The notes beneath the pieces are model-generated. The model saw only the letters and a program-made list of their open reading frames with translations, was not told the origin of the DNA and did not search any database. Of a stretch of DNA of 64,000 bases, positions 5,101 through 41,027 are shown one piece after another (the first letter of the stretch is position 1; each line of letters starts with the position of its first letter). Source of the DNA: Panopea generosa (taxonomy: Eukaryota; Mollusca; Bivalvia; Adapedonta; Hiatellidae); NCBI GenBank assembly GCA_029582155.1, contig CM055897.1, positions 1,202,501-1,266,500 of the forward strand, read 5' to 3'. Made by a program: the position numbers and the translations under genes.

Positions 5101-6030
5101 CGGAGGAAGGAGCTACGAGCAATGATATTTTGAATTTAGTCTAGGCGAACGTGCTAAGTGCTCTAAGAAAAGTTGTAGTAATAAGTCTGTGATCTTTCAA
5201 TTTTAAGACAATGTTGTCTCCTAATTCAACATTCGCTATGCACAGATAAAGAATTAAATTTCAGTAATCAGTTCAAATCTACAGCAATATTCAAATGCAT
5301 TGCCAAATGTGTCTTTGTTATGGCTGCATTTTATCAAATAGACAGTAATTCAATCTTTTTATAGGTGTCCTTTAGAATTAATAATTGGAAAGACTGTATT
5401 TATATGGCAATTGTGGTGCATTACGCAATGGGACAAATTGATACTTTCTCGATTTAAAGTAAGGCTAGGCTACACAGACGGAACCCACCTATATACAATT
5501 AACTGTTACAGAAACCATAATTTTCCACATACACAATGCATGGCTAGGATATAAAACATCAAAAGCAATCTGTACTGCATCTGTGCAGACTAATCAAAAA
5601 TAAAATGGGAAACATAAACATAGAATTGAGTTTGGCAGCATTACAATGCTATAACAGTATCAGTGATGCTATAGTGCAGCACCGAAAAGATATTTGTCTT
5701 TTTAATAGAATATATCTTGTTTCTAACAAAATAATCCATAAGCTATAATAAGGGAATACTGATCCTTGGTGCACTTCGAAAAAATGTATGTGAACATACA
5801 ATTTAGTCTTAAACATTAGTCCATTTTGTGTTGCCTAGGTACTCATTTAAAAAAATAGCCTAAGAGTTAGACGTGAAAATTTAATTCGAGCTTAATTCTT
5901 ATGTAAAGCAAACTTCTACTACTCTGCTTATGGTGAAGAAAAATATGATAAAAGAATTACACGGATAGAAACAATTAACTTTTGTTACCCCTGTAACCAT
6001 GAAAAATGTAATTACATGACATGATGTCAA
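2186..6030. other. AT-rich spacer, no gene seen
   Basis: Only short chance reading frames, no recognisable exon and no long repeat. It contains the tRNA-like fragment described separately, a T-rich stretch at about 2880-2935 and a modest 14-bp inverted repeat around 4281-4335. Confidence 0.7.
2706..2777 (+). repeat. tRNA-Ala-like fragment (SINE head or tRNA pseudogene)
   Basis: The stretch carries an A-box-like segment (TTCAATTGGTAGAGCG), a possible TGC anticodon loop (CGCTTTGCATATGG) and a B-box-like GGGTTTGATCCCC. The acceptor arms pair poorly, so it is not a functional tRNA. Imperfect direct repeats around AATCAG..ACTGGTAAT at about 2641-2658 and 2842-2858 flank it, as expected of a retroposed copy. 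Confidence 0.55.
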
Positions 6031-6033
6031 ATG

Positions 6034-6160
6034 TTATTGTTGCTGTTGCTGTTGTTGTTGTTGGTGGTGGTGGTGGTAGTTGTGGTGGTATTAGTTGTTG
6101 TGGTGGTGTAGGACTACTACTGTTACTGCTGCCCTCCCCCCCCCACCCCCCCCCCCCCAG
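6034..6160 (+). repeat. Compound microsatellite (TGT)n/(GGT)n and poly-C
   Basis: TTG/TGC and GGT trinucleotide runs, followed by interrupted C tracts at about 6132-6160. Confidence 0.9.
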
Positions 6161-6542
6161 TGAATCAAAGCCGCATACAACATTTCAATACGATTGAGGT
6201 TATATTTTTTTAAGAAGAAAATATCAATTGTTTACAAACGCACGACACACAACAGACAACGACGGACAATAGACGATCGCAAAAGGTCCCTTGAACCAAG
6301 TCTCAGGTGACCTGAAAATATTTGTATATTATTTATACCTTGTGAGGTAATTATTGTCAAAACAATACATCAGTTACAGTCTACTGTGTCAAACATGGAA
6401 TAAGGTTTCATATTCAAAATATGTCCAAAACTCGCTCTTTATTTATTGTCACAGTATGACATTATTTATCGTGACTATAATCACCATCTTTTCAAATCTG
6501 AACCATGCTTCTTTCTTTATTCATTATCCCAATATATCATAT
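6161..6542. other. Spacer with a small interspersed-repeat remnant
   Basis: Around 6240-6320 lies a GACGGACAATAGACGATCGC-type stretch followed by a GGTGACCTGAAAATATTTG-like end, typical of the end of bivalve interspersed repeats. No gene seen. Confidence 0.4.
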
Positions 6543-6615
6543 GTGGAGCACGCGGTCCAGTGGTAGAGCATCGAACCCTTGACAAGATTAAAAATAAATA
6601 AGTTAAAACTAATAT
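6543..6615 (+). mobile_element. SINE family A, internally deleted copy
   Basis: The head (CGGTCCAGTGGTAGAGCATC) and the tail (AAAATAAATAAGTTAAAACT) match the full copies at 35204-35410 and 33198-33412, but the roughly 140-bp centre is missing. The head resembles a tRNA A box. Confidence 0.6.
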
Positions 6616-6825
6616 ATTACAATATATCACACTTTATTTAAAATACTGTTGCAATATACCTGTCCAATACTAGCTACTTTATTTATTGTAACTTAATGTC
6701 AAATCAGTTCTGACTCTCAATCAGGCTTTTTAATTAACTGTGTGCAATAATTGCCTCATTAGTTATTGTCACAATGTCATATCAGTTCAGCAGCGATTGA
6801 GGAATCATATTTATACTTAATATTT

Positions 6826-7800
6826 CTTCACTGTCACTGAGGATGTGACGCAGACGTTGTCACTGTTATAGAACATTATTGTTTTTGTATCCAATACTCG
6901 ATTATTTATTCATCGTCACTGAGGATGTTACCCAGGTGTGGTCTCTTATAGCATATTATTGTTCTTGTGTCCAATACTCCCTTATGTATCTATCGTCACT
7001 AAGGATGTGAAACTCGATTATTTATTCATTGATACTGAGGATGTGACTTGGACAGAGTCACTGTAATAACACATTACTGTTCTTGTATCCAATACTCGAT
7101 TATTTATTCATTGTCACTGAGAGTGTGACTGAGGCGTAGTCACTATAATATAACATAACTGTTCTTGTATCCAATACTCGATTATTTATTCATTGTCACT
7201 GAGGGTGTGACTTGGGGGAGTCACTGTAATAACACATAACTGTTCTTGTATCCAATACTCGATTATTTATTCATTGTCACTGAAGGTGTGACTTAGGCGT
7301 AGTCACTGTAATAACATATTACTGTTCTTGTATCCAATACTCGATTATTTATTCATTGTCACTGAAGGTGTGACTTGGGGGAGTCACTGTAATAACACAT
7401 TACTGTTCTTGCATCCAATACTCGATTATTTATTCATTGTCACTGAGGATCTGATTTAGGCGTAGTCACTGTAATAACACATTACTGTTCTTGTATCTAA
7501 TATTCAATTATTTGTTTATTGTCACTGCGGATGTGACTTGGGCGTAGTCACTATAATAACACATTACTGTTCTTGTATCCAATACTCGATTATTTATTCA
7601 TTGTCACTGCGGATGTGACTTAGGCGTAGTCACTGTAATAACACATTACTGTTCTTGTATCCAATACTCCATTATTTATTCATTGTCACTGAGGATGTGA
7701 CTTAGGCATAGTCACTGTAATAACACATTACTGTTCTTGTATCTTATATTCAATTATTTATTGTCACTGAGGATGTGACCCAGGCGTGGTCACTGTAATA
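6826..7800 (-). repeat. 82-bp minisatellite derived from the endonuclease 3' end
   Basis: About 12-13 tandem units, mostly 81-83 bp apart, anchored on ATTGTCACTGAGGATGTGAC and CAATACTCGATTATTTATTC. One unit near 7020 is shortened. Read on the minus strand, the unit beside the Helentron endonuclease (7745-7800) is the endonuclease's own coding end, including the Ser-Asp-His motif at 7786-7794. Most other units read Ser-Asp-Tyr followed by a stop. The array looks like a tandem expansion of that coding segment. Confidence 0.85.
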
Positions 7801-8420
7801 ACACATTACTGTACGTGTGTCCAATAGTTGAAGATGAGCAGTGTATAATTGATCTAAACAGGAACCTGAGGCATGTGTTGGGTCTGATACGTGCTGGGTG
7901 AACCCTTCAGATGAGAGTTTCTGCAGAATATGGGAAAGACGCTGTTCTATTATATTCTGGTTGAAATCACCTGTGCAAATGATAGGTGGTTGACATTGTA
8001 GAACTGGTATACGTTTGTTTGACGTAATACTTCAACATCACAGTGTCTTGGATGGTTCATTGCATTTGGCGAGTTATAGACCCCTATAACATAGATATGA
8101 CTATTCAATCTGGTTGTAAGTCGAACTGTTACAATTTGAAGGAATTTATCCATGAAACAGTCTATTTGTTCACATTCAAGAAATGACCGTTGTTTAGCTA
8201 ATACAGCAACTCCACCTGAACGGTGATCAAGGTGACTGGAGGGCTTGTCTGAGCGGAATATGATGTAATCACTAGGGAATATTGCAGTTTGCAGTTTGCT
8301 CATCCAACCATGTTTCAGTGAGGACAATCAAATCCGATTTAAGAGACACAGGGTCACACATGCATGAAGTCATTCTGGTGATGTGGATATGATCGTATAT
8401 TTAGGACTGAAGTAATGATT
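7745..8420 (-). pseudogene. Helentron EEP (apurinic-like) endonuclease domain, frameshifted
   Basis: C-terminal nuclease domain of the Helentron polyprotein. It is read in pieces on the minus strand: a segment with LIVLTETWLDE (the catalytic glutamate motif, about 8300-8330); a second frame, about 7950-8290, with the conserved RSGGVAVLAK strand; a third frame with TGDFNQN (GDFN at 7960-7971), a PTHASGSCLDQLY stretch and YYSDHAW (SDH at 7786-7794). All the metal-binding motifs of the EEP fold can be recognised, but at least two frameshifts separate them. It lies directly downstream of the helicase, as in other Helentrons. Confidence 0.85.
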
Positions 8421-8484: not shown

Positions 8485-9660
8485 TCATTTGTATTTGTAC
8501 CTTTTTATTGGCAGTATTTTCTTTTCCTCAAATTTAGATATGTATAAACCAGTTAGTGTCTTTGCTCTACTTAAGGCAACATATGCTTGACCATTCCTGA
8601 ACTGGCTTTGAAATGAAACAAATATTTCATCAAGCGTGAGTCCTTGAACTTTGTGAATGGTACATACCAAGCATAATTTAAGCGGGAACTGATACCTTGT
8701 AATTTTCAAGTCTTTGGTCTTGCGTGCCACAGTGAAACTATTTTCTGACCTCAATACTTGTGTTGCATCTGGATAGTGTTTGTTTAAGTTCAACTGTGAA
8801 CTGTGATTTGCGTCTAGCTGCATTTTCAGTATTACTTGAGTTGAATCTCACTAAAACTGCAAGTAATTTGGAGAAAGAACCTGTTCCTGATCCAATGAAA
8901 CCAACAACTTGATCTTGACTCCCATCAACCAGACCATCTGCGTTGTCAATATTTCTTATCAACATAACTCTTGCTCCAAGAGTAATCTGACTTCACTTGG
9001 TAAGCCACCAGTGAATTTTTGAGTCATCTCTAAGTTGGAAAGTTTCTAAACCTTTTGTTGTTGTTTTTTGTCCACAGCAATGATGTTCTCTTCTCTACAG
9101 GTTGTTTAAGAGCATCAAACTGTTCTTTGTTATGAGAATCAACATCACAGTTTCGTGCAAAAACATACAAAGTTTGCTTTGGGTATTCGCCTGGGGAGCA
9201 TTCTCTTGAATTTAGTACTTGCAAGTCTTCACTAGTTTGAGATTGTGTTCGTATCCGGTTGAGCATTTCAGCAAAATAGCAATCTTCCTTTTGTCTCATT
9301 ATTCTGGTTAGTTTCACAAGAAGAAAGTTACCCCACAGTGATCCATATAACATGGCAATAGGATCAGAAACAGAATCAAACACAAACTTCTGTTTGACAG
9401 GCAGTAACTGGTACAATTCGCCAAACACTATCACCGATACACCTCCAAATAATTTTCGAGATGACTTAATCTCCGACAGCCTATAGTGTAATTGAAGGAA
9501 AAGGTTATAACCTACCATAGATATTTCATTAATGATAAGCAGGTCCAAATTTCCAGACTTTGATCTGAGAGTGTTTCTTTTATCATCTGAAAGTTTTATA
9601 AAACTTTTTGTGTGACCTAAGGTTAACAGAAATGCGGAATGGAGAGTTGTGCCGGATATA
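8485..9660 (-). pseudogene. Helentron Pif1-like helicase, middle and C-terminal motifs
   Basis: DNA helicase half of the transposon protein. Visible on the minus strand are SGTTLHSAF (motif Ia-like), LLIINEISMVG (Walker B; the usual DE reads NE), GVSVIVFGELYQLLPV (normally GDLYQLPPV, here GE), LTRIMRQ, and at the C-terminus [13 protein letters not shown] and [16 protein letters not shown] (motifs V and VI). Frames change around 9030-8965 and 8820-8740. The acidic substitutions in Walker B and the neighbouring GD motif suggest loss of ATPase activity even apart from the frameshifts. Confidence 0.85.
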
Positions 9661-9661
9661 T

Positions 9662-10132
9662 TTATGTTCCAGTCGATGCTGTAAGTAGCACTTGTATGTC
9701 ATCAGGGTTTTCACCTTCTCCTTGCAACTTTCTTAAAGCCATCTGGTAAATGGCTGAAATCAGATGCGATTTACCTGTAACGGCTTCTCCAGATACAAAG
9801 AGAAGCAAAGGTTCAGGGTTACTACCTGTTCTGTGGGATATTGATTTTTCATAGCACCATTGGAACACAGTTTGGAATGTATCTCTTTGCTCAGCATTGA
9901 GATGTCTAACATGCGTGAAATAATCATCTTCTTGCCAGAAACCAGACCTCATCTCCAGTGCAGAGGATATGTTGCCCAAAGCAACTGGAAAATATGTTAG
10001 AGGTGGTTGATTGGGTATGTTGCCATCTGGATTTAAAACAGCAAAGTCTACATCTTCAACAACTTGCTCATTATCATTTTCCTGTTTAGTACTTGCTGCA
10101 ATATTATCAAATGCATGTACTGGGGGCCACAC
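9662..10132 (-). pseudogene. Helentron helicase N-terminal part with Walker A
   Basis: 156 residues ending in a P-loop region: LLLFVSGEAVTGKSHLISAI. The canonical GGAGTGKS is altered (GEAVTGKS) but keeps the terminal GKS. It is preceded by LNAEQRDTFQTVFQW, typical of the Pif1/Helitron helicase Q-motif region. It ends in LLTASTGT just before a frameshift; the next frame continues with SGTTLHSAF. Confidence 0.8.
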
Positions 10133-10455
10133 GCCTCAAACTGTTCAACAACGAGAGAAATAATGTCGGAATGCTGTTCAAGCTCTGAGGATTCTGTTCA
10201 ATTATAGTAATGTAAGTGCTGTAATGATTGTGGTAACATCATAAGCTGAGCAAGTCAGCCTCTTCATTTGTCCATGGTAGAAAGAGAAGTAATTGTGAGT
10301 AGTAGTAGTATTCTGGTTCTTTTGTTTCAAATCTGTGGTGGTAGCGAAGAACAGATTTCTTGGACTTTTTCTTCATAGAACCAAGACCATTTTTAACTGT
10401 ATTGTAACAATGGTATTTTCAGATTCCTCTTGATCTGATACTTCTGAAGTATTGC
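10133..10455 (-). pseudogene. Helentron Rep-helicase linker, badly eroded
   Basis: Lies between recognisable Rep and helicase segments, is interrupted by stops in all frames, and carries no motif I can name. Assigned by position only. Confidence 0.4.
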
Positions 10456-11101: not shown

Positions 11102-11113
11102 TTTTTGAAAACA
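11102..11113 (+). repeat. Target-site duplication, 5' side of LINE
   Basis: TTTTTGAAAACA, identical to 16959-16970. It marks the LINE insertion point inside the Helentron Rep reading frame. Confidence 0.9.
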
Positions 11114-11765
11114 CCCCCCTGTTGGTAGGGATAAGAATTTGCCGACTGCTCGTTCCAAGCAGAGGGGTAAGATCCTCCCCGAAAAGGAACCCACCTGTTA
11201 ACCGTGGGTGGCGACCCGTGCGGTTGGATAAAGGAGTCCTGGTGGTAAAGCGCCACAGGAGTCTGCGACGCAACACACCACTTTGGTCCGGATTTCAAGT
11301 CAAGACGGGAGGTCGGATGGGCCCGGTCTTGATCAATCGGTCTGTCATGATATTTTACTTGGATTATATTTTGTCATGTATCATCCTTTCTCCATTATTT
11401 CATCCCCATTGATTTTTTCCATTCTCATTTACTTGTCTATATTTATTTTCTATGAATATATATATTAGTTATCTTACTCTCAAATTCTTGAAAACTATCA
11501 TGGCTTATGGGCTAAATTTGTAAAGTGAAATGCTATATGGTTATACGTATGCCATTTTAGATGGATGTTGGTGCGGTTCTTGTCTTGTCGGGACTTGAAT
11601 TTACATCCATCGGGTGGTATGCGGGATCTGATGTATTACTTTGCTGGAGTATATTATCCACGTATTCTTGTCATCATGTCTGTCGGATATCCACAGCATG
11701 TGTCCCCTTGTTGGACTCCGCGGCGGGTGAGAAACGTGGACAACGAACCAAACACAAACTCATTA
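11114..11765 (+). other. LINE 5' untranslated region
   Basis: Starts at the target-site duplication and runs to the first plausible ORF1 start. Relatively GC-rich for this window at 11120-11330. An internal RNA polymerase II promoter would be expected here from the family, but no motif can be pointed to. Confidence 0.5.
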
Positions 11766-13045
11766 TGGCTTCAAAAAAAAACACCAAACCAAAACTACTA
11801 CTCGAACTGTACCTGCTCAGTCTTTACACAAGCGTGCTCGGCACGATTCTGTTGAGATTGAATCAGATGAGGATATATCAAATATTAACTGGCCACGATT
11901 TATTACAATTACATCTACAGATGGATCCAGACCTGTTACGAAACTTTCACCGTTTGCGATTCACAAGCAAATACTTGGTATTGCTGGTGAACCGCGAGAG
12001 GTAAAAAAAACTCAAATCTAATAAAATTCTGGTTGAATGTCAAAAAAAAGTCATTCTGACAATCTACTTTCTTTGAAAAAATTCGTAGATATTCCTCTAG
12101 AAGTCCGTCCCCATATAACACTCAACTTCTCCAAAGGAGTCATTCGTTCCAGGGAACTGGAACACTGTACTGTTGAGGAGATGAGTGTTAATTTGAAACC
12201 ACAGGGAGTTTCAGAGGTGAACAGGATTAATACCAAGAAGGATGGCAATATGAAACCGACCAATACCTTTATTCTTACTTTCAATAACCCAAATATATCA
12301 ACAAATGTCAAGATCGGTTATATATCTTTACCTGTTGACCTTTTTATTCCTAATCCTCTTCAGTGTTTTAACTGTCAACAGTTTGGACATTATCGAGAAA
12401 GATGTAGACGAGATGCTCTGTGTGCTCGATGTGGTGAACAAGGACACACGGACTTCTCGTCATGTACAAAACTCGCCTTTTGTATTAATTGCAAAGGGAA
12501 CCACGGGGCTTTCTCGAGAGATTGTCCGAAATGGAAACATGAACGCGAGATTCAAAAGGTTAAATTGAAAAACAAAATTTCGTTCCCGGAGGCCAGACGT
12601 CTTGTTGAACTCCAATCTCCATCTACTCCATCAGGGAAATCATATGCTGATGTGAGTAGACATGTTGAGAAAAAATCAACAAGATGTATGGAAACTCCAA
12701 AAATCGGTGAACTCGGGGAATGTCCCGAATTCACCTAAGATATCGAGCTCTGGTGGCACCAAGGACTCGTCTTCTGCGAGCTCTGGTGGTACCAAGAGCT
12801 CGTCTTCTGTGAGCTCTGGTGGTGCCAAGGACTCGACTTTGTCGAGCTCTGGTGACACCAAGAGTTCAAATTCTACACGTAGGGCTGGAAAAGTAAATCT
12901 GGTCACTGCTAAATTTTGTGCAGGGAGGCAACTAGAAGGGTCCGATGACCCTGTACAGTTGCATAATAAATTTTCATACCTGGATATGGAAACCGATGAT
13001 GTATCATCGGATTCATTCAAGGTTGCTAAATTGAAAGTCCCTTAA
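11766..13045 (+). pseudogene. LINE ORF1, zinc-knuckle nucleic-acid-binding protein, frameshifted
   Basis: Gag-like ORF1 that would coat the element RNA. Three frames follow one another: 11766-12004 (a segment with SVEIESDEDISNINWPRF and FAIHKQILGIAGEPREV), then 12020-12670 with three consecutive Cys/His knuckles (CFNCQQFGHYRERC, CARCGEQGHTDFSSC, CINCKGNHGAFSRDC), then about 12665-13045 with a Ser/Gly/Thr-rich tail of roughly 30-bp tandem repeats and LDMETDDVSS. Every frame change falls at or near an A run (about 11772, 12004, 12668), so slippage or assembly error could explain them. Confidence 0.8.
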
Positions 13046-13065
13046 GCACCTATACTTCCACCTAA

Positions 13066-13881
13066 ATGAACACTTCAAATAAAATAATACAATGGAATTG
13101 TCGCGGTTTAAAACCAAATTATGATGAGATTAGTCTACTTTTAAGTGAACATAACCCTATTGCATTTTGTCTTCAAGAAACGTTTTTGAAGTCAAATGAT
13201 AAAACAACTTTTAAACAGTATTCTTTATATAATACTTTATGTGATACAGGTGAAAAAGCAACTGGTGGCGTGTCTATTCTTGTTAATAGAAACGTCCCGC
13301 ACAGCTCTATTGCATTGGACACTAATCTGCAAGCAGTTGCAGTTAGTGTTACAATGCATAGAGTTATTCCAATTTGCTCCTTATATTTACCACCAAGTGC
13401 AACCCTTGATCCGAAGGATCTCGATAAACTCATTGCACAATTACCATCACCTTTTATGCTTTTGGGGGGTTTTAATGCCCACAATTACATATGGGGTTGT
13501 AAAGACATAAATGATAAAGGTAATAAAGTTGAATCTTTTTTAAATCAAAATAACCTATGTCTTTATAATGACAATAAATCTCATACATATTTACATCCTG
13601 CTTCAGGATCGAAAACTTCCATCGATTTATCAGTTTGTGAGCCATCACTTTTGTTAGACTTTTCATGGAGTGTTGGTAATGATCTCTGCGGGAGTGACCA
13701 TTATCCAATATTTCTTGAAAATATTGGACCTCCACTTCTTGATAGAAATCAACGATGGAAACTTCGCAAAGCAGATTGGCATATGTTCCAATCTCTTTGC
13801 GAAGAACAGTTTAAGCCTGATATATATTTAATTATACGGATGATCCTGCTGGTCAGTTTTCATCAATATTATACAGTATAG
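13066..13881 (+). pseudogene. LINE ORF2, EEP endonuclease domain
   Basis: ORF2 starts 20 bases after ORF1 ends. The first 250 or so residues form an apurinic-like endonuclease: IIQWNCRGLKPN, FCLQETFL, GGVSILV, LLGGFNAHN and GSDHYPIF. The GDFN motif reads GGFN because the codon at 13468-13470 is GGT, so the catalytic aspartate is lost by a single A-to-G change. The frame is broken near 13830; the downstream frame continues with KPWYDDDCKNAV before the RT region. Confidence 0.88.
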
Positions 13882-15724
13882 CAGAAAAATATATCCCAAA
13901 AACCTCGACAAATCCAAAACGTCCTCAAAAACCATGGTATGATGATGACTGCAAGAATGCAGTCAATTTAATTTACGACCTACACAACATAATTTAGACA
14001 ATTTTAAAGTGTTTCGTGCAAAAACAAGACGTACTCTAAAGGAGAGTAAGAGAAAGTCCTGGAGAGATTACGTCTCTAGGCTTAATTCTCGTACTAACCT
14101 TAATAAGGCGTGGGACATGGTCCGAAAAATCAACGGTAAGGGTACTCCAGGTTGCGTAAAAAATTTAAAATCTGAAAATCATACTGCCACATCTGCCAAA
14201 GACATCGTTAATACTTTGGCAGATACTTTTTCAAAAAATTCATCTACCACTAATTGCAATCCAAAATTTTTAAAACATAAACATCAGACTGAAAAACAGA
14301 AACTAAACTTTAAATCAAATAATTCAGAAAAATATAATAAGAAGTTCTCTTTGAGTGAATTGAAAAATTCCTTAAAGAAGGCACATGATACATCAGCTGG
14401 TCCTGACGATATCCATTATCATCTTTTAAAACATTTACCCGAATCGTCCTTATTATAAATATACTTGATATATTTAACTCTGTTTGGGTGACTGGAAACT
14501 TCCCCGAGTCTTGGAGGGAAACTATCGTTATTCCGGTACCGAAACCTGGGAAAGATAACACGGATCCAGTTAATTACCGTCCAATTGCTTTGACAAGTTG
14601 TGTTTGTAAAACCATGGAACGTATGATTAATGGTCGCCTCGTTTGGTTCTTGGAATCCAACAACTTAATTACTAAGTATCAAAGTGGATTCCGACGCCAA
14701 AGGGGCACTACAGACCATTTAATTAGATTTGAATCGTTTGTTGGGGAGGCTTTCATAAAGAAAGAACATTTAGTCGCTGTATTTTTTGACTTGGAGAAAG
14801 CCTACGACACCACGTGGAAGTATGGCATTACGAAAGATCTTCATAATATGGGCCTTCGTGGCCGTTTAGCTACATTTATTTTAAACTTTTTAGATGATAG
14901 ACAGTTTCAAGTCCGAATGGGAACAACCCTCTCCGATGTTCACAAACAGGAGATGGGCGTCCCACAAGGCAGTATTCTGTCTATCACACTTTTTAATATT
15001 AAAATTAATAATATTGTTAAGACTATAAATCCTGGTGTGGATTGCTCTTTATATGTTGACGATTTTGTAATTTGTTACCGTTCAAAAAATATGAAAACTA
15101 TTGAAAGGCAACTACGGCAATGCCTTAATAAACTTCAGACTTGGTCTGATGAAAACGGTTTAAAATTTTCTAATAAAGTCTAAAACAAATTGTATGCATT
15201 TTTGTCAACTACGTAAACATCACGATGATCCCAATCTAACGTTAGATGGGACACCTATACCTGTTGTTGAGAAAACAAAAATTTTAGGTCTTATTTTTGA
15301 CCGTAAACTTACTTTTATTCCTCATCTTAAATATCTTAAGACAAAGTGTAATAAAGCACTAAATTTATTAAAAGTTGTTGCCAATACTAATTGGGGTGCA
15401 GATCGTAAAGTTTTACTTAGACTTTACAGATCTGTAATCAGATCAAAATTGGACTACGGCTCTATTGTATATGGATCAGCTCGCAAGTCTTACTTAGCGA
15501 TGCTTGATCCTATAGACAACCAAGGACTACGACTCGCCCTTGGTGCCTTTCGAAAGTCCTCTGCCGACAGTCTTTATGTAGAGGCGAATGAATCATCATT
15601 GTATTTAAGACGTGAAAAACTGGCTCTTCAATATGCAATTAAACTTCATTCAAATCCATCTAATACTGCTTTTAATCTTACTTTTGACCCAAATTATGAA
15701 ACTCTCTTTGATAAAAAAACCTAA
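13882..15724 (+). pseudogene. LINE ORF2, reverse transcriptase domain
   Basis: Pieces at 14009-14455, 14456-15183 and 15184-15724 form a continuous RT with stops between them. Motifs in order: SAGPDDIHYHLLK, VIPVPKPGKDNTDPVNYRPI, YQSGFRRQRGTTDHL, AVFFDLEKAYDTTW, MGVPQGSILSITLFNI and LYVDDFVICY, with the catalytic YVDD at 15052-15063 intact. The thumb and connection follow (KTKILGLIFDRKLTFIPHL, LRLYRSVIRSKLDYGS). The stops at 14456 and 15181 would truncate the protein. Confidence 0.9.
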
Positions 15725-16640
15725 AGCTATTCGAACTTTTGGTCTCCGGATCAAACCAAAACTAACCGAAGCCAATATTGATCTTAATTTAATTGCTAAG
15801 TACAAAGTCTCAGAAATACCACCATGGACTTTGGAAAAACCAAAAATCATTTTTGAACTTTGTAAAGACAAACAATCTGAAACAGACTCCACTATCTTCC
15901 AAAGTAAATTTAATGAAATCAAATCGTCTTACAATCATTATTGTCACATATATACAGATGGTTCTAAAGATGGAGAAACCGTGGCTGCAGCTGCTGTTAC
16001 AGGACAGCACACCTCAAAGAGCCGATTACCAAACGGAGCCTCCATCTTTTCAGCTGAACTCAAAGCCATTGATTTGGCATTGGACTACATTAATGATTCT
16101 GAGGAAAAACAGTTTATTATATTTTCTGATTCACTTTCATCTCTTCAAGCCATAGATGGCATGAAAGATGATAATCCTCTTGTTCTTCAACTTTTAAATA
16201 AATACAATGTCCTATGTGAAGATAATACTATTGTTTTTTGCTGGCTTCCTAGCCATACAGGAATTCGAGGAAACGATAAAGCTGATAAGGCTGCAAAACC
16301 AGCCTTAAGCTTGAATATTATTACTTTTAAACTGACTTTTACAGATTTTAAATCTCATATTAATAAATATATTTTTAGTTCATGGCAGTCGTCTTGGGAT
16401 CTTGCTATAAATAACAAATTACATGTTATAAAACCAAAACTTGGCGAATGGCATCCTAGCAATAGATGTATTCGTCGAGAAGAAGTTGTATTAGCTCAGT
16501 GTAGAATTGGGCATACGCGCTGTACATCTTTTAAAACGTGAACCTGTTCCAGAGTGTGTGCCCTGTTTTGCACCGCTTACTGTGAAGCACATACTTGTCG
16601 ACTGTGTGGACTTTTCTCCAATGCGAGAAAAGTACTACAG
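15725..16640 (+). pseudogene. LINE ORF2, RNase H domain and C-terminal CCHC
   Basis: RNase H acidic residues are in the expected order: IYTDGSKDG, FSAELKAIDL, FSDSLSSLQA and GNDKADKAAK, with WLPSHTGIRGN before the last. The domain removes template RNA in the I group. The frame shifts near 16525. The next frame carries a CVPCFAPLTVKHILVDC stretch, the C-x2-C-x7-H-x4-C knuckle typical of the end of this ORF2 type. Confidence 0.88.
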
Positions 16641-16649
16641 AGTCAACAG

Positions 16650-16958
16650 TATGAATTAATTATTTGATAAAATTGATGTTTCACATATATTTGGTTTCCT
16701 TAAAGAGGTTAAGCTTTTTAATCATTTTTAGTACAGTTATTATATTATTGACCTTGTTCACTTATTTGTTGTTGTTGTTTTTTCATTTATTTATTTGTAA
16801 ATAGTTTTCATTTATTTATTTGTAAATAGTTTTAATAAATTTTTAACCATATTTATTTTATATATTTTTGTCATCATCACGTCCATTAATCTTTGCGCGC
16901 ACAAAATGACCTATTTATGTGTTGACGTGCCGTAAAACACCATTCATTCATTCATTCA
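16650..16958 (+). other. LINE 3' untranslated region with CATT tail
   Basis: T-rich 3' UTR with a short duplication (TTTTCATTTATTTATTTGTA twice, about 16778-16825), then a conserved-looking end (TTGACGTGCCGTAAAACACC) and five CATT repeats to 16960. Confidence 0.85.
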
Positions 16959-16970
16959 TTTTTGAAAACA
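16959..16970 (+). repeat. Target-site duplication, 3' side of LINE
   Basis: TTTTTGAAAACA, a perfect match to 11102-11113. Confidence 0.9.
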
Positions 16971-17732
16971 GCGTCATCAGATTATATGGGAGTTGCAATT
17001 AATGTACTAGGCGATGGCATCTTTGGGTTTCCAAAGCGGCAGTAGTTTGAACCCTTCTTTTTACAAGTTGCTATGTGGTGATGTTTTTGTGCTGTTGTCA
17101 CAAGATTATACAGTTCTGGGTTATCTTGTTTGGATGGTATTTTACATGTAATGTACTTGTCAATAAACTGTGTAACTGTTTCTACAGGGTCTGTTGGCTT
17201 GGGTGCATTTGCTATCCCAAGAACATAATGTACATGAGAAGAACCCCTTTGCTGGAATTGTACTCTATATGAATAGTGAACAATTTTTCCAAACACATGT
17301 GCTGGACTGAGTAGGATGTCATTTAATAAACACTGTACTATATGATCAAAATGTCTGGCTGTTGTCACTGGGTTTGATCGTAGCAAAGAACATTTTTTCC
17401 CAAGTAAGGTTTTCTATTTCTTCATCAGTCATATGTTTACCTTGCTGTCTTAAGATGGCAATTAGTGAGTCAGATCACTTCATATCTGCTGATGACAATG
17501 TGACAAAGAATATAAAAATGCCAAACTGGCGTATTGCTGCCATCAACTGGTACATAGCTTTCTACCAGTATGGTGGGGAACCACGAACTGTTTGTAGGAA
17601 ATGGTTTGCTTCGTTTTTGAATTTGAAAGAGTTCTTGGGAGACTTGTACAGAGTTCATTGACATCAACAGGTACTTTGATAACTTTTCCTAGAATACCTC
17701 GTTGCTTTCCCTTTGGTAATTGTTTTCATGAA
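16971..17732 (-). pseudogene. Helentron Rep (HUH) N-terminal half, frameshifted
   Basis: Rolling-circle initiator domain. The frame 16982-17386 carries TTARHFDHIVQCLLNDIL, then VQFQQRGSSHVHYVLGIANA, the His-hydrophobic-His (HUH) metal-binding motif, and a Cys/His-rich HHHIATCKKKGSNYCRFG segment. Upstream, in another frame, lie FFVTLSSADMK and LIAILRQQGKHMTDEEIENL; a TGA replaces the expected Trp after DMK. At the LINE border the frame runs through a TAA (after LIATPI) and then directly into the frame resumed at 11101, so the insertion split one domain. Confidence 0.88.
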
Positions 17733-17949
17733 CTGATTGATTGATTGAATATTTAGCGTCATTATTATACCATCGAGGGCTAACAGACGATCAGTTAACC
17801 TAACCACTGTTTCCTGGGATTAAACAGTACTCGAGCACACACCATCTCTACAAGTAAATGATAACTTTCCCACTTGAATCAGTGGTAAGAGAAGAATGAT
17901 AATGAGATAAACGAGACTCAATGTCGTATATCAATCATCACGGAGACTA
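17733..17949 (-). mobile_element. SINE family C inserted in Helentron
   Basis: 217-bp element flanked by the 10-bp duplication TTTTCATGAA (17723-17732 and 17950-17959). On the minus strand it ends in ATTCAATCAATCAATCAG, a short-repeat tail. A second copy at about 56560-56905 (+) shares the whole body (for example CTGATCGTCTGTTAGCCCTC and CAGGAAACAGTGGTTAG). Confidence 0.85.
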
Positions 17950-18300
17950 TTTTCATGAAAGGGTATCTCCTTGCCAACAGCCTACTTTCAAACTTTGTCA
18001 ATTCACTTAGAACTTCAGGTGAGTCTTGGATTAACATTTTGTTGATTTGAGCTTGAGGACGAGTTTTATTTTTGTTCACATCTTTTGCAGTTACAGCAAA
18101 TGTACTGACAGCCATCAGGTGAAATTTCACATGTACCGATAGACCTCGATAAGAGTGTTTCCTGCTTAAATTTTGTAACTCTTTTTCTAAACATTGTCCT
18201 GTGACAAACAGTACAAACATATTCAGGAGCATGCTCAATGTTATTTTTGAAATTGGTTGCAGCAACATCTATATCTGATGTATGTCTATGTGTATGTTTT
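17950..18300 (-). pseudogene. Helentron DUF6570-like segment
   Basis: Reads LLNMFVLFVTGQCLEKELQN and later LSELTKFESRLLARRYPFMK, a conserved block upstream of Rep in Helitron proteins. The frame is cut by the SINE right after RYPFMK; beyond the SINE the same block resumes as TKGKQRGILGKVIKVPVDVN. Confidence 0.7.
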
Positions 18301-18629: not shown

Positions 18630-19502
18630 TTATTCGTTGCATTTTTTACGTTTCCTATCTTTATTTCTTTCCATTTGTCTTTGTTGGAATGATTTTAAAT
18701 GTCTTTTCTGCACCACAGTCATTGTTGAACTGTTTTGATAATCAGTGTTTTGAACGACAGTATCATTTTCAAAGTCCTGTTCATTTTGAAGCATATATTC
18801 ACTTTGTAGAACTGGTGTTTGGAGCACAGTATTTCGATTTCTCATTTCCTTTTGTATATTTAACTTCTCTTTAGTAATTCTTTGTTGTCTTTGTGAATAA
18901 CTATTAATCCAATTGTTTTGGACTATTGAAGATGTCAATGGAAATGCAGATAACAAGCCAGTATTAAAACAGGTTTTTAAATGCTGTCTCGCTTTTGTAA
19001 TATCATAGTTCATATCTACTGGATTTCCACCAAGGAAACACGTGAAAGCAAACGCAAGTGCCATCACACCACAAATGGGTTCTGTAAATTGCTGTGTGAC
19101 TTTGTCATATATAAGAGTATTTACTATTTCACGCGGGTACAAGTGTAACAATTGTAACTTTGCTGGCTCCATGTGAGATATGCTCTGGAGGGAATCATAT
19201 AGATATAATTGTCTCAGAACTGAATTGTAGTATGACGTCACCCAATGACCATTTAAAGGGTAAATGTGGATAGAGTTTTTATTTAATGGTAAAAAAGTAG
19301 AATTATTCATTTTTGCTGTGGTAGTAATAAACTAAAGTTCAGCAGGAGTGTAAAAGCCATAATACTCGTCTTGTCCACTTGATTTTATCAGCTGTAAACC
19401 AGCGACTATGATGAAGGTTATCTCAGTATCCTTATCTCCGGTCATCTGCGTCAACTGTTGTGGATGGTATGCCAGCGATGTTGCTCCTGAGTCTGTATTC
19501 TG
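18630..19502 (-). pseudogene. Helentron C48 (Ulp1)-like cysteine peptidase region
   Basis: N-terminal region of the element protein. From 19310 it reads IHIYPLNGHWVTSYYNSVLR, then LYLYDSLQS and EPICGVMALAFAFTCFLGG: His (HW), Asp (YDS) and Cys (CG) in the order and context of a C48 peptidase. The tail is basic (KRHLKSFQQRQMERNKDRKR). An upstream segment in the same frame (19311-19502, with LAYHPQQLTQMTGDKDTEIT) follows a splice-acceptor-like TTAATTTCAG and is separated from it by an in-frame TAG at 19332-19334. The peptidase could process the polyprotein or act on ubiquitin-like conjugates; this is inferred from the family. Confidence 0.65.
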
Positions 19503-20530
19503 AAATTAATAAGTATCCTGAATATAAGATATAAAATAATCAGGGAATACCACACCAAGCGTACAGATAACTACTTTTATATCTATTATACAACATTTTG
19601 TTTATAAAATTATTTTCATTTCAAGCTCAAATAAAAACTATTAAAATTAAATGATGAACAGTAAAATATTTCTTTACAAACATGACGTAAATAGAAACTG
19701 AGGTGCAAAAGAGTTGAGCATATTTCTAACCCAATTTTTAGAATGCTGCTTTACCTTTTCGTGGTCTTTACTCACTGTCCGTCACTTCTGCTCTCGCTCT
19801 TTTTTCTTTTCGGCGCCTATTCATAATGCTTCAAAGCAATTGTATTCAAAATTATAACAAAATTACAAGAAATTCATAATAATAACAAATGATATGTTTT
19901 GTCTTATTATGCTGTTTCAACATTGTACAATCAAAACATCAGGGGTGTGTTTCACTAATGTTCATAAGTTTACAAAGTTCTTAACATTAAGTTTGAAGTT
20001 AGGATAAAACATAATGAAATTCCTTTAGTGTTTCACTAACAACAACAAAGGAACTTTAGAAAGTCATGTAAATAAGTTTTTTTTAAAAACTCACAATAAC
20101 TTTTTGCTAATGATACATCTACAGGTGTTTACATTTATTCATACGAAAATCTTAGATTAAGAAATGTTAGTGAAACGGGCCCATAAAGATTTGAAATAAA
20201 TATTTTACCTAAAAGTGTTTGTTTTGATGAACGGTTTGTTGTGCATGTGAAACATATATACCAAATTATGAATAGGCTTAGTCTGGGTCATATAATTAGG
20301 ATAAATTTATCAATCATTGGTTTTGGAAGTACATGTAAAACTATCCATCAAATGAATTATGTATATGAGTATAAGTATATAAGTATTGTAAAATATGTTA
20401 TGTACTGATTTTCCTGTTAGCAGACATAACAATAAATTTAGATGAGGAAGTACCAAAGAGATTCAATAAATAAGATAATAAAAATATGTGAACTTACCAG
20501 TGTGTCACAATATTGTACTTCAAGAATGAT
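19503..20530. other. Spacer, no gene seen
   Basis: May include the Helentron 5' region, but no terminal motif could be identified. The segment around 19940-20180 (GGGTGTGTTTCACTAATGTT to TTAGTGAAACGGGCCC) has inverted ends, GTGTTTCACTAA versus TTAGTGAAAC, and could be a small MITE-like unit. Confidence 0.4.
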
Positions 20531-20757
20531 TATTTTTTTAAATTGAGTTTAACACATTTCAGGTTATATATGGCATATCCAATTTTATTGGTGGAGGAAG
20601 ACCTCAGACTGAGTAGAACCACCGTCCTTCAGCAAGTAACTGGAAACTTTCTCACATAAAGTTTTTGGTGCGAGCGGGACTCAAACCTATGACCTTAGCG
20701 GTGAGAGGTAAGTGATCTTGAGACGGCTCCTTAGACCACTCGGCCTCGGAGGACCCT
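20531..20757 (-). mobile_element. SINE family B, minus copy
   Basis: Read on the minus strand, the head GGCCGAGTGGTCTAAGGAGC resembles tRNA-Leu/Ser, with a B-box-like AGGTTTGAGTCCCGC, then a body ending GCCATATATAACCTGAAATG. The same family is present at 60781-61015. Confidence 0.85.
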
Positions 20758-20811
20758 CTTTCAAGAATAAATTTATCTTAAGGTGAAAGACAGAATTAGT
20801 CTTTGATGTAA

Positions 20812-22480
20812 AAAAACAAGAGGGCCAGAGTGTCCCTAAATCGCTCACCTGTTGCAGAGGAGAGAATGATTGTGAAAAATGGCAAGCGAGCAATACCTCA
20901 GCCATTTAAATTTGGTCAGTTGAGATAGTATAGATATATAATTTCAGTCCAAGCATTGTGAAGATATATATATATTGCTGTAGTGTACACAAATTCATAT
21001 AATGCAATCTTTGTTATTTCAAGGGCCATAACTCTATATATTAATGATCTTATTTGGCCAGTTCAAGAACTTGTCCCAAGATATTATGGTCGTTTAACTA
21101 CTATGTAAGTTTGGTGGACATCAAGTGAAAAATGCTGGTGCTAGAGTGCACTTCGGTCAAATAGTGCAGTTTTTTTACTATTTAAGGACCGTTACTTTGA
21201 CATTTATAATCAGATTTGACCAGTCCAAGAACTTGTCCGAGATATTATGGTTATATAACTACTGTGAAAGTTTGGTGAGGATCAAACATAAAATGCAGGT
21301 GCTAGAGTGCACACAAGGTAAAATAGTGCATTTTTTACTGTTTCAATGTCCATAACTTGTGACATCAATAATACTATTTGACCAAGTCAACAACTTGTCA
21401 AAGATATTATGGTTATATAACTACTATATTATACTGAAAACCAAACGTTCAGTCAATAAAATACACAGGAAATCCTATTGGGTACATTTAAAGCCGGATA
21501 AATGCCTGGATAATTCAATACTATTTTAAAGACCCAGTCTTAAATTGAATTTGGGTTTGTAACAAACGTAATCGGTGATTAAACAAAATATAACAAGCTT
21601 GCATAACATTTTTAACATTTTTTCTTATACATCTCTTCGTAAAAAGTGACATATGTTATTAATGCAGCTTTTAAAGAAAAAACGCTTAAAAGTTCTTTAC
21701 TGGCTAAAAAGTAGTCATTGATTTGCAACTTTTTATATTGTTTGGGTAGAAAATTCATGACATCAACATTTTCATTTTGCAAAACAAATGCATCTTCATT
21801 AAAGCCAATAAAATGCTTCAAAATTTGGTACCAAACACAAAATATTTTATTTTTTCCAACATGGCATTTTTTTTGGAGAAAATACAGTGCACACGGAGTA
21901 TAGTTATATAACTGCTGTACAATTTTGGTTAAGTTTTAATGAAAATGGGGATGTCGTCACATGTACATGAAAATTTCAACATTTTCTCTATAATAATAAC
22001 TCTTTGCAAAACAGTGAACCATGTGGTGACCCCAAATTTGACCTCAGGGACCCAACTTCAACAAATCTTTCAGGGGACATCCATGCAATACTACATGTAA
22101 AACGAGATGTTGGTTATATAATTTCTATAAAAGTTTGGTTAAGATTCAATTAAAAATGGTGGTGATATTGCCAGGCCCGCAGAGCTACAAATTGGTAAAA
22201 AATTTCTAGTTTACAGCGGTTTTGCATGATATAGGTTTATTATAGTATACCACTAGGTAATGTATAGTAGACATTAGTAATTTTTAACTTAATAAATTGC
22301 AAATAAATATAATTTCCACAAGCAATACAGAAGTCCCCTACCGGTTTATACTTTCCGAGTTATTGCAAATTGCTGTTGTATCTATAATTGTGTTGTCATG
22401 GCAACAACAACTTGTCTAACTAAAAATATTCACAACCCAGTTTGATTACTTTTTTAGTAATTAGTAATATTTCCGGACGG
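20812..22480 (+). repeat. Bivalve-type interspersed repeat with about 162-bp monomers
   Basis: Starts with AACAAGAGGGCCAGAGTGTC and a TCGCTCACCTG stretch. Three clear monomers follow, anchored on ACTTGTC..AGATATTATGGT near 21069, 21231 and 21392, each with GTTTGGT and GGTGCTAGAGTGCAC blocks. Diverged material continues to about 22480. Chance reading frames here are not genes. Confidence 0.75.
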
Positions 22481-23980
22481 ACAAACGAATAGAGGGTAAA
22501 TCTAAAGTCCAATTGTGTGAAATTATCATGACAAAGACGAAGTAAAACAATTAGTTAAAAGCAATAAAAAATTCTTGTCTGGTTTGAGGATTGTCAAAAA
22601 TTGCTTGCCTGGTTTGAGGATTGTCCTTTCACATGTAATGATTTTTTATGGAATGAGTGGTCTGCAGGTTCGTAAAAACAGCGGGAAATTGAAATGTGCA
22701 CAAAGTTAATCGACTGTGAAAAACAAGGGTCATCCAAAAAGTAGTAAGAGCAGTTTTATAAATATAATACTTAAAAAAAATAGATTACTCACCTTGCTAC
22801 ATATCAGTGTAATTTCTTTTTTTTATTAAATGACACTCTTCCATCTGCCTGGCAACACTTGCATGCTATTGATAAGCAACCTCGGTTGATCACCTTCACC
22901 TCTGTCTTTACAGCAGGTTGCAATTCGTTGAAGTTGGTGAAGAAGATTAACCAGAGCAATTGTGTTAAAATTTAAAGTTTGGTGGGCTTGGCTGCTCTTC
23001 CAAAATGCTGGATATGAGTACTTTTCAAAATAATAATTTTTTTTTAATTTTTTCTCTCCTAACTTTAATTTCATTCACTTTTAGAAAGTGTTTGCGGGCA
23101 ATTCATGGACCAATCAATGTTGTTAATAAATTTGTTGAGTTTCAGCTGGATGGCTCAATCAGTAAAAAGGTTATGTAAGAATATATAGCTAAATTTGTCC
23201 CCTGTACACCCAAAAAAGTGATATTTTACATGAAGGCTTATATTCATATGTGTTTTATTTTTTGAAACCTAATTGTATGGGTTTTTTTTTCTTTTTTATG
23301 TAACTTAACCCTTGACCATTTGACAAAACATACTTTTAATAATAAATTACAAGTTATTCTAATCAAATTTTAATGTCATGTGACGGAACCCCATTCATTA
23401 AAAAAAAGAGATAAAATTTACTTTTGGAACACTACCATTCCAGCACTATTTTTCTAAAATCCTAATGTTCTTTTAATCCCTTTAACCTGTCTGCTTTGAA
23501 CAAATATCATAGTTTTATTAATTAATACATTATTTTGTTGGATGGTTTAAAGCAGCCCCCTGTGCACCCTGTTTTGGCAGGTGTCAAGAACATGTCAAAT
23601 GTGTACATAATATTTAGGCAACACTTGATAGTTTAGCAATTGGAGGTTCGGTGTATTATAAATACTGAGGCATATAAAATGACATATTTTGGAACTCAGT
23701 ATATTATGAATGCAAGATGAACAAATAAGTGCACCACACTGATGTGGATGTTGATATAATTACAAAGCCCCATATACATAGAAAGGGACCAACACTTTAT
23801 TGTTAAAAGAAGCATACGTGTATACCCTAGTGCATACCTAAGTAACATTGACTTAAATATAAGCAATTACAGTAAAGCACAACTGATATCAAAACTGAAA
23901 TGAAGAGTTTAAATAGAATATATGGGCATTTCACACTGCAATATCACTGTCGTGATCGTGATACGGCATAGCTTTTCCGT
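22481..23980. other. Spacer, no gene seen
   Basis: AT-rich, no exon or repeat recognised. A minus-strand frame at 22826-23074 lacks any known motif. Confidence 0.5.
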
Positions 23981-33197: not shown

Positions 33198-33412
33198 GTT
33201 TAAACTTGTTTATTTTTATTTCGATTGTGAAACAAGTTCTTACTACTTAGACAAATCACGCTCAAAGTCTTCGTGGGTAGAACCAGTTTTAACCATATGC
33301 GGAAAACTGTGTCTTTCTCCAGGCACACCACACACAGCCTAGGCGGAGGATAGAATCCTAGACTCCACGATCATGGGTTCGGTACTCTACCACTGGACCA
33401 CTTACTCCACTA
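33198..33412 (-). mobile_element. SINE family A, minus copy
   Basis: Minus-strand head AGTGGTCCAGTGGTAGAGTA, centre GGAGAAAGACACAGTTTTCC, end GACTTTGAGCGTGATTTGTC and a tail of AAATAAAAATAAACAAG. Aligns along its length with 35204-35410. Confidence 0.88.
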
Positions 33413-33991
33413 AATGATAATTGTACGAGAATCTCACAAGATGATTATATCCATTTATAACTTTCTTTTTCATGCAAATATTCGCCAATAGTTACACATA
33501 GCTTATGTTTATTGTCTTATATTTCATGCCGACTTTTAAAAAAATATATATTAATTATATAAACTACACACAGTATACCCTAGTGCGACAATTTTTATGT
33601 TGTCATTTTGTTTAGTAAAGATATTGTTATCATAAACAATTATTACACCAGTATTAATTTATGAAATTTAATTCAAATAAATAAACCATAGAGATAGTTA
33701 GACAGAAAAGTTTGAGACAGATAGAGGAAGACAAAATATGGATTAAATAATAAATACAATGCATGACAATATATGGATATATTATGTATTAATTTTCCTC
33801 TCAAATAGCCTAAACTGTAATAACACAACTACTAGTAGTATATATCGTGAAATATTAGTCTTTACGCCACTTCTGCACTCCCGTTTAAATGTTTTATATT
33901 TCTTATACGCTTTACATTTTTATAGAATAAATAATTATTACTATATTATATTATATCTAGTTGTGGAATTTCACATCATCACCGAAACTAT
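33413..33991. other. Spacer, no gene seen
   Basis: AT-rich sequence between the SINE and the inverted-repeat element. Confidence 0.5.
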
Positions 33992-36386: not shown

Positions 36387-37189
36387 CCAGCTGACCGCCT
36401 GTATTCTTGTCAGTCTGATGTTACAACTCGACGGAGAAGGAGCTGCAAGAAGACTTTGCATAATTAATTTATCAATTAATTATTATTATTTGGTAATACA
36501 GGCTGGGACTTTGGACCGAGGTAACAAGTGAACGAGGGATTCCCAGAAGTACAGTTTTCAACTCAGAGTTGCAGAATCCTCTGAAACTTGTGAACAGTGC
36601 TCCGGGTCGTAGTCTGTTGGGTGCCATTGTTTGCCTCAGACAGGTGTTGGGACAGGCTTGGAACATTGCTGCAGAACTAGTTTTATTTAGTTGAAACAAA
36701 GTCCTGAGCAAGTGTTTGAGACGTAAGTCTGATACTTTGGTGCAGCTAGGAGTTTCGAGTTTGGTGTGCTGCAGGACTAGTTTTATTTATTTAAAACAGA
36801 GTCCTGGGCATTTGTTTGGAGTGCTGCAGGACTAGTTTTATTTATTTAAAACAGAGTCTTGGGCATTTGTTTGGAGTGCTGCAGAACTAGTTTTATTTAT
36901 TTAAAACAGAGTTCTGGGCATAGTGTTGTGCGAAACGTTGGTTTGAAACGTTAGTTCGAAACCTTTATAATTTGGTTTTATATGTAAAGTTAATTGTACG
37001 TGATTATTCTTTTTCAAACACGAATCATTTGTTCAATCATTTGTCATCTAATCATAAAGCAAAGTAGCTTGAGGAAAATTATTTCACCATTTATCTTAAA
37101 TCAAACGGCAAGTAGTCCAAGAAAAATTCTTGTATATCATATTTATTAGTAGTTGTGTGCATAATCCGCTCGGTGCACGCTACAAAAAT

Positions 37190-39907: not shown

Positions 39908-41027
39908 TGTGACGAAAAACGCCTTGTACATATAGAAATCCATAACATCGGTGTATTTTGTTACGCCGCTATACTTTTCTGTTGGTTGGTAACTTTATAT
40001 TTACCTTTTATATATGAATAGTCTAAGTATTCCTTATTGTTTATTAAGTTACATTAATAAACGTACAGAAAACGTAGTAAATAAACTGTCAGGTAGACGC
40101 TTATTGAATTTGATTAAGGATGGTAATTCAATTGAATCGCATTATCTCGAAAGTCATTATGTGGTCGTACAACACTAAGGATGCCCGATTGAAGCCATGT
40201 GACTAGGTCATGTGACTTCTGTTATATAACCAGCTGACCGCCTGTATCCTTGTCAGTCTGATGTTACAACTCGACGGAGAAGGAGCTGCAAGAAGACTTT
40301 GCATAATTAATTTATCAATTAATTATTATTATTTGGTAATACAGGCTGGGACTTTGGACCGAGGTAACAAGTGAACGAGGGATTCCCAGAAGTACAGTTT
40401 TCAACTCAGAGTTGCAGAATTCTCTGAAACTTGTGAACAGTGCTCCGGGTCGTAGTCTGTTGGGTGCCATTGTTTGCCTCAGACAGGTGTTGGGACAGGC
40501 TTGGAACATTGCTGCAGAACTAGTTTTATTTAGTTAAAACAAAGTCCTGAGCAAGTGTTTGAGACGTAAGTCTGATACTTTGGTGCAGCTCGGAGTTTCG
40601 AGTTTGGTGTGCTGCAGGACTAGTTTTATTTATTTAAAACAGAGTCCTGGGCATTTGTTTGGAGTGCTGCAGGGCTAGTTTTATTTATTTAAAACAGAGT
40701 CTTGGGCATTTGTTTGGAGTGCTGCAGAACTAGTTTTATTTATTTAAAACAGAGTTCTGGGCATAGTGTTGTGCGAAACGTTGGTTTGAAACGTTAGTTC
40801 GAAACCTTTATAATTTGGTTTTATATGTAAAGTTAATTGTACGTGATTATTCTTTTTCAAACACGAATCATTTGTTCAATCATTTGTCATCTAATCATAA
40901 AGCAAAGTAGCTTGAGGAAAATTATTTCACCATTTATCTTAAATCAAACGGCAAGTAGTCCAAGGAAAATTCTTGTATATCATATTTATTAGTAGTTGTG
41001 TGCATAATCTGCTCGGTGCACGTTACA
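39908..41027 (+). repeat. 3' LTR
   Basis: Near-identical to 36064-37184. Preceded by a purine-rich CGGAGGCGTGGGTAA that may serve as polypurine tract. Confidence 0.93.

Follow-up and report, generated by a model that had tools for sequence, protein, structure and literature searches.

The locus considered here raises a simple question: can a tandem array standing at the end of a rolling-circle transposon be traced to the coding sequence of that transposon? Helitrons and Helentrons have been named as frequent examples of short internal array expansion (PMC12628747), and two origins have been weighed for the tandem repeats of the oyster HINE elements, captured filler or sequence intrinsic to the element (PMC7492417). 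In the window, that is, the whole 64-kb stretch of DNA that was analysed (GC content 34%), copies of an 82-bp unit lie against the end of an endonuclease frame. We propose that this array arose by tandem duplication of the coding end of the endonuclease together with its stop region. For the one locus at which it is seen, a probability of about three in four may be given to this reading.

A broken Helentron on the minus strand

The neighbour of the array is a broken rolling-circle transposon of the Helentron type, carried by the minus strand. The assignment is supported by the joint presence of a Rep, a PIF1 helicase and a C-terminal AP endonuclease, the three parts of the Helentron plan (PMC4067079). 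To judge by its layout, this DNA would be animal. Along the minus strand, the order is DUF6570, Rep (with a LINE within it), PIF1 core, C-terminal part of the helicase, endonuclease and array. The DUF6570 segment (17921-18268; PF20209, E 1.9e-5) is located upstream of the Rep segment (16985-17413; PF14214 Helitron_like_N, E 4.1e-14), where FQQRGSSHVH is read. The PIF1-like helicase core (9033-9698; PF05970, E 8.4e-16) is preceded by an N-terminal part (9662-10135), with weak AAA and PIF1 matches under the cut-off (E 0.0051 and 0.046), and followed by a C-terminal part (8488-8847), with weak Pfam helicase matches also under the cut-off (best E 6.8e-5).

The endonuclease sits directly after the helicase and is weakly recognisable as the AP endonuclease expected of a Helentron. 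It is split into three frame pieces (8373-8275, 8327-7959 and 7995-7753, minus strand). The N-terminal and middle parts form two overlapping broken frames (7959-8373) containing LTETWL, GGVAVL and VYNSPN, which we take to be endonuclease motifs; the middle piece (7959-8327) has no endonuclease match in Pfam. The C-terminal piece is considered below.

The LINE inserted in the Rep is on the plus strand (11114-16958) and encodes a CCHC zinc knuckle, an AP endonuclease, a reverse transcriptase and an RNase H. A 12-bp repeat, TTTTTGAAAACA, flanks it at 11102-11113 and 16959-16970. This repeat is the longest word common to both LINE flanks searched, with the Rep text VFK on either side, and it is taken as the putative target-site duplication of the LINE. 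Upstream of the DUF6570 region, an open frame of 233 aa (18633-19331, minus strand) has no Pfam match; it reads GHWV...LYDS...CGVMALAFA, which we take to resemble a C48-like cysteine protease. An exact 11-base search for subterminal inverted repeats, comparing 19200-23000 with 5901-6830, returned only a TTG-microsatellite match.

Extent and borders of the array

A preliminary description of this DNA had placed about 12 tandem copies of the 82-bp unit at 6826-7800. The array and its copy number were recovered, with borders that must be moved to 6821-7826. TRF gives 10.0 copies of 82 bp at 7012-7826, with 89% matches, and a poorer stretch at 6821-7010. With a profile built from the same 12 units, nhmmer finds 12 units across 6821-7826, each at E <= 1.4e-19. 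On the minus strand, from the gene outwards, the array comprises the coding unit (7744-7826, hereafter unit 1), nine interior units of 84-96% mutual identity (7012-7743), a partial unit in the form of a 34-bp stub (6977-7010; nhmmer E 0.0075), a far-side unit (6896-6976) and the outermost well-kept unit (6821-6895), which is open in the endonuclease frame and reads LDTKTIMFYNSDNVCVTSSVTVKK. Between 7176 and 7419, units that have one particular loop base take turns with units that lack it, which amounts to a higher-order repeat on a small scale; a period of 163 bp is likewise scored by TRF over the array.

Past 6821, the array probably continues on the minus strand as decayed units of about 80 bp each (6390-6820). 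It would then span about 1.4 kb, decaying away from the gene and reaching about 6390, because these units pass tests of motif spacing and of shuffling. Copies of a 25-base motif are found at 6437, 6515, 6677 and 6757, spaced by 78, 162 and 80 bases. The Smith-Waterman score of 6390-6820 against the tandem unit, 56, was equalled by none of 300 dinucleotide shuffles. For the part-stretches 6390-6544 and 6640-6820, 0 and 1 of 300 shuffles reached the score, against 211, 97 and 271 of 300 for three control stretches, none of which was significant. nhmmer returned no significant match on the decayed units (best, 6437-6454, E 5.4). They are broken at about 6530-6582 by a repeat-like piece resembling 33371-33423 (83%, E 2.2e-8).

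Elsewhere in the 64-kb window, the 82-bp unit has no significant match (next nhmmer match, E 0.92), and no non-autonomous carrier of the array is found there. Viral contigs gave no pattern match to the helicase query, four to the endonuclease-end query, with 0 confirmed, and 0 to a 23-base unit pattern. From prokaryotic contigs, the endonuclease-end query drew 40 pattern matches, of which 0 were confirmed. This absence of relatives says little, because these collections hold viral and prokaryotic DNA. Sequence matches of the endonuclease end in the PDB were two chance antibody matches only (E 0.29 and 1.3), and were discarded.

Unit 1 is the coding end of the endonuclease

The C-terminal piece of the AP-type endonuclease (7995-7753, minus strand), identified from its translation and from PF03372, has 81 residues. 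It starts with CQPPIICTGDFN, carries GDFN, LDQLYT and a final YYSDH, and ends with SSVTINN before the stop. The array starts at about residue 57 of this piece, the last 24-25 residues lying within unit 1, which reads LDTRTVMCYYSDHAWVTSSVTINN-stop. According to the preliminary description, the array adjoins the Helentron endonuclease, its first unit is the coding end of that endonuclease, and this unit reads CYYSDHAWVTSSVTINN-stop, with SDH, on the minus strand. All of this proved correct. The endonuclease frame, open from GDFN through unit 1, runs straight into the array; the reading is found at 7803-7753, in frame with the upstream endonuclease, and the stop comes 11 residues past the His.

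The Pfam family Exo_endo_phos (PF03372) aligns residues 3-70 with profile positions 146-225 of 225. The match is weak (E 0.0034), its 17.6 bits falling short of the curated cut-off of 24.5 bits; Exo_endo_phos is the sole Pfam family that matches the piece at E up to 10. Its last profile position falls on the His of SDH. When the piece is cut at the array edge, the score is 15.2 bits, the contribution of the tail being 2.4 bits. Seven shuffled tails give 14.1-16.7 bits, the best of them 0.9 bit behind the real tail, which by score alone ranks first of eight tails. The end of the profile is reached by the real tail only, and by 0 of the 8 other forms (the cut form and the shuffled tails). In the LINE endonuclease aligned to the solved TRAS1 (1wdu), SDH likewise stands at the domain end, about 9 residues before the chain stops; a BLASTP comparison of the Helentron endonuclease end with this endonuclease of the window was not significant. 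With unit 1 encoding the endonuclease end in frame, the repeat shares its sequence with a coding part of the adjoining element, as expected of a minisatellite derived from a transposon ORF.

State of the other units and direction of the change

Among the other 11 units, six read SDY, three SDS (two of which miss one base just after SDS) and one SDN, while CAC is kept in one, which has a two-base gap upstream. In four of the 11 (7257, 7420, 7584 and 7666), TAA stands in place of the Trp codon, all four being SDY units. His changed to Tyr together with Trp changed to stop, which had been ascribed to the other units at large, holds for these four, and not for the remaining seven. In the nine interior units, both the His and the Trp codons are lost without exception. 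Five of the 12 units are open throughout in the endonuclease frame, the coding one included: 7744 (SDH, W), 7502 (SDY, Q), 7094 (SDY, S), 7012 (SDS, Q) and 6821 (SDN, C). Three units are frameshifted (7176, 7339 and 6896). As 82 is not divisible by three, the reading frame shifts with each successive unit.

Comparison of the units bears on the direction of the change. Seven of the columns 1-72 distinguish unit 1 from the interior consensus; an eighth is in the last codon, where the shifted tail of unit 1 begins. The far unit 6896-6976 carries the base of unit 1 at four of the seven, namely in the Asp codon, in the His codon and at two Trp-codon sites, downstream of its two-base gap. By comparison, one of the 38 differences of the nine interior units taken together is common with unit 1. 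Fisher's test gives 0.0011 for 4/7, 0.0020 for 4/8 with the eighth column in, and 0.019 for 4/15 with the whole shifted tail. A plain column-overlap test gives P 0.014 over columns 1-72 and P 0.157 over all 80 columns. The outermost unit 6821 has just one of the four bases common to unit 1 and 6896. Since the far unit has four distinguishing bases of unit 1, the endonuclease-like sequence seems to be the ancestral state, retained at the two edges, and the interior seems to derive from one altered unit that expanded later. The bases shared by the edge units could also be due to exchange between the array edges.

Two LDTRT codons of unit 1 have synonymous counterparts in the interior (GAC/GAT for Asp, CGT/AGA for Arg); apart from these, the remaining four of the seven columns (His, Trp twice, Ile) alter the residue. 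The synonymous differences, at two codons only, fit past selection on the coding unit. Identities range from 84 to 96% among interior units, from 77 to 84% for the two far units against all others, and from 74 to 80% for unit 1 against the rest, the latter value partly reflecting the shifted tail of unit 1, aligned without gaps.

Proposed origin of the array and alternatives

The following scheme may be envisaged. The starting point would be a Helentron endonuclease gene ending in YYSDHAWVTSSVTI, with a stop codon soon after. A segment of about 82 bp, starting at the LDTRT codons and ending a few bases past the stop, would have been duplicated in tandem. Coding function would have stayed in the first copy while the downstream copies drifted, the early ones decaying at the far side. 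One copy whose His and Trp codons were already changed would have seeded a later interior expansion, unequal exchange or slippage then maintaining the similarity of the interior units. The direction from gene to array, the order of events and the mechanism of exchange are inferred. The proposal of the preliminary description that the repeat grew from the nuclease end stands as the simplest origin, given the in-frame source unit at the array edge, for this one locus. The array itself is probably a by-product.

In a different scenario, the array or its seed would have been captured as filler from another Helentron or from a satellite with this endonuclease end, and placed here by recombination. 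Capture of filler is the favoured model for insect Helitrons (PMC7492417), and no other of the 12 units is as divergent as unit 1, as expected from separate histories. However, the repeat register continues in phase from the coding frame, with no junction except the array's own edge, and the divergence of unit 1 is equally explained by selection on the coding unit and homogenisation of the interior. Capture is on balance improbable at this locus.

Still less credit can be given to the idea that the array has a role in the transposon, for instance by marking the region of the 3' end with hairpins; a 6-bp stem, GTGACC/GGTCAC, over the SDH..W codons would have been kept over the catalytic codons through a C:G to T:A change. 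Nine of the 12 units have this stem completely paired. In the nine interior units, its 12 columns hold two minor-state cells (0.17 per column), the corresponding values being 1.57 for the loop and 0.49 for the other coding columns. Over all 12 units, however, the stem is not more conserved than the other coding columns (0.83 versus 0.80 per column), and the paired change counts once, because the interior units have one founder. Moreover, the stem was picked after being seen. The folding energies of six tested units are ordinary (z -1.07 to +0.20), neighbouring non-repeat stretches having z of -2.01, which is better folded, and +0.99. Because these energies are ordinary despite the stem, an origin driven by folding was also set aside; the stem could still have been an aid to slippage.

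Finally, SDH might be a coincidence, the endonuclease having been deprived of its true end and reading by accident into an older array of different origin. This agrees with an element broken elsewhere (frame changes of the endonuclease) and with a tail that adds few bits to the Pfam match, but is very unlikely, since YYSDH comes after LDQLY and coincides with the end of the Pfam profile, and since a short hydrophobic stretch comes next, before the stop. At the rate of the window (9 SDH in 127,996 six-frame positions, or 7e-5 each, Helentron and LINE copies included), an SDH would be expected at about 6e-4 if nine positions are assumed suitable.

Comparison with known tandem repeats

Duplication of the endonuclease end may be set beside known arrays. 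Central tandem repeats of Helentron-type elements (HINE, DINE-1, Cg_HINE, Pearl) are likewise short arrays (PMC7492417, PMC4067079). HINE arrays stand between a left and a right flank; in the oyster elements, the array is followed by a right flank of some 60 bp (PMC7492417). Oyster units average 140-180 bp and occur in non-autonomous elements, whereas the unit described here has 82 bp and adjoins a coding end; the oyster survey took in 100-500 bp repeats only, a range outside which an 82-bp unit falls (PMC7492417). In that survey, the oyster HINEs could be related to 0 of 10 autonomous elements (PMC7492417). In D. virilis, 154-bp repeats are likewise in tandem inside a full-length Helitron, Helitron-2; they are close to one end, at positions 237-1087 of 9141, a region treated as the 5' part (PMC3833285), and thus away from the endonuclease end.

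Tandem repeats from transposon coding sequence are also known in other element classes: HinfI (part of CR1 ORF2), PROsat (L1 ORF2), a rye satellite (gag) and a satellite derived from a CACTA transposase (PMC9659126). In contrast to these, the repeated piece is here the nuclease end of a rolling-circle element, and the source copy is still in frame at the array edge. Within the accessible portions of PMC6947457 and PMC11136912, no endonuclease source is named for Helitron repeats, the word 'endonuclease' being absent from those of the latter, and the literature covered, largely open-access and at the level of titles and abstracts, yielded no Helentron array traced to an endonuclease end. Arrays from transposon reading frames being already known, what is new is an unusually legible example from a Helentron endonuclease end.

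With the parent codons in frame at its edge, the locus offers a readable case for the intrinsic route, and comparing central-repeat consensus sequences with endonuclease C-termini would be a simple exercise for other families. It is tempting to imagine that the central repeats of Helentrons often have their beginning in a duplicated endonuclease end of the element itself, a generalisation that we regard as unlikely. If it were true, the HINE layout, with an array between a left and a right flank, would be what remains of a Helentron after its genes have been lost by internal deletion, and decayed nuclease ends would account for many 'orphan' HINE repeats.

Other features of the window

Two stretches, 6240-6318 (minus strand) and 46480-46560 (plus strand), resemble what we take to be bivalve-type HINE left ends (T-rich start, CACCTGAG). 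The former lies just past the decayed array, in the orientation of the Helentron, and is followed by GTCC/GTCT/GTCG-like text; besides the motif, the identification relies on the GTCY microsatellites described in PMC7492417. An array of three 55-bp copies is present twice, at 36759-36921 and 40602-40764, on both sides of gag and protease frames; these two arrays are likely the two LTRs of one retrotransposon. At 3-2182, a 42-bp array of 52 copies contains stop-to-stop frames of 204 and 315 codons.
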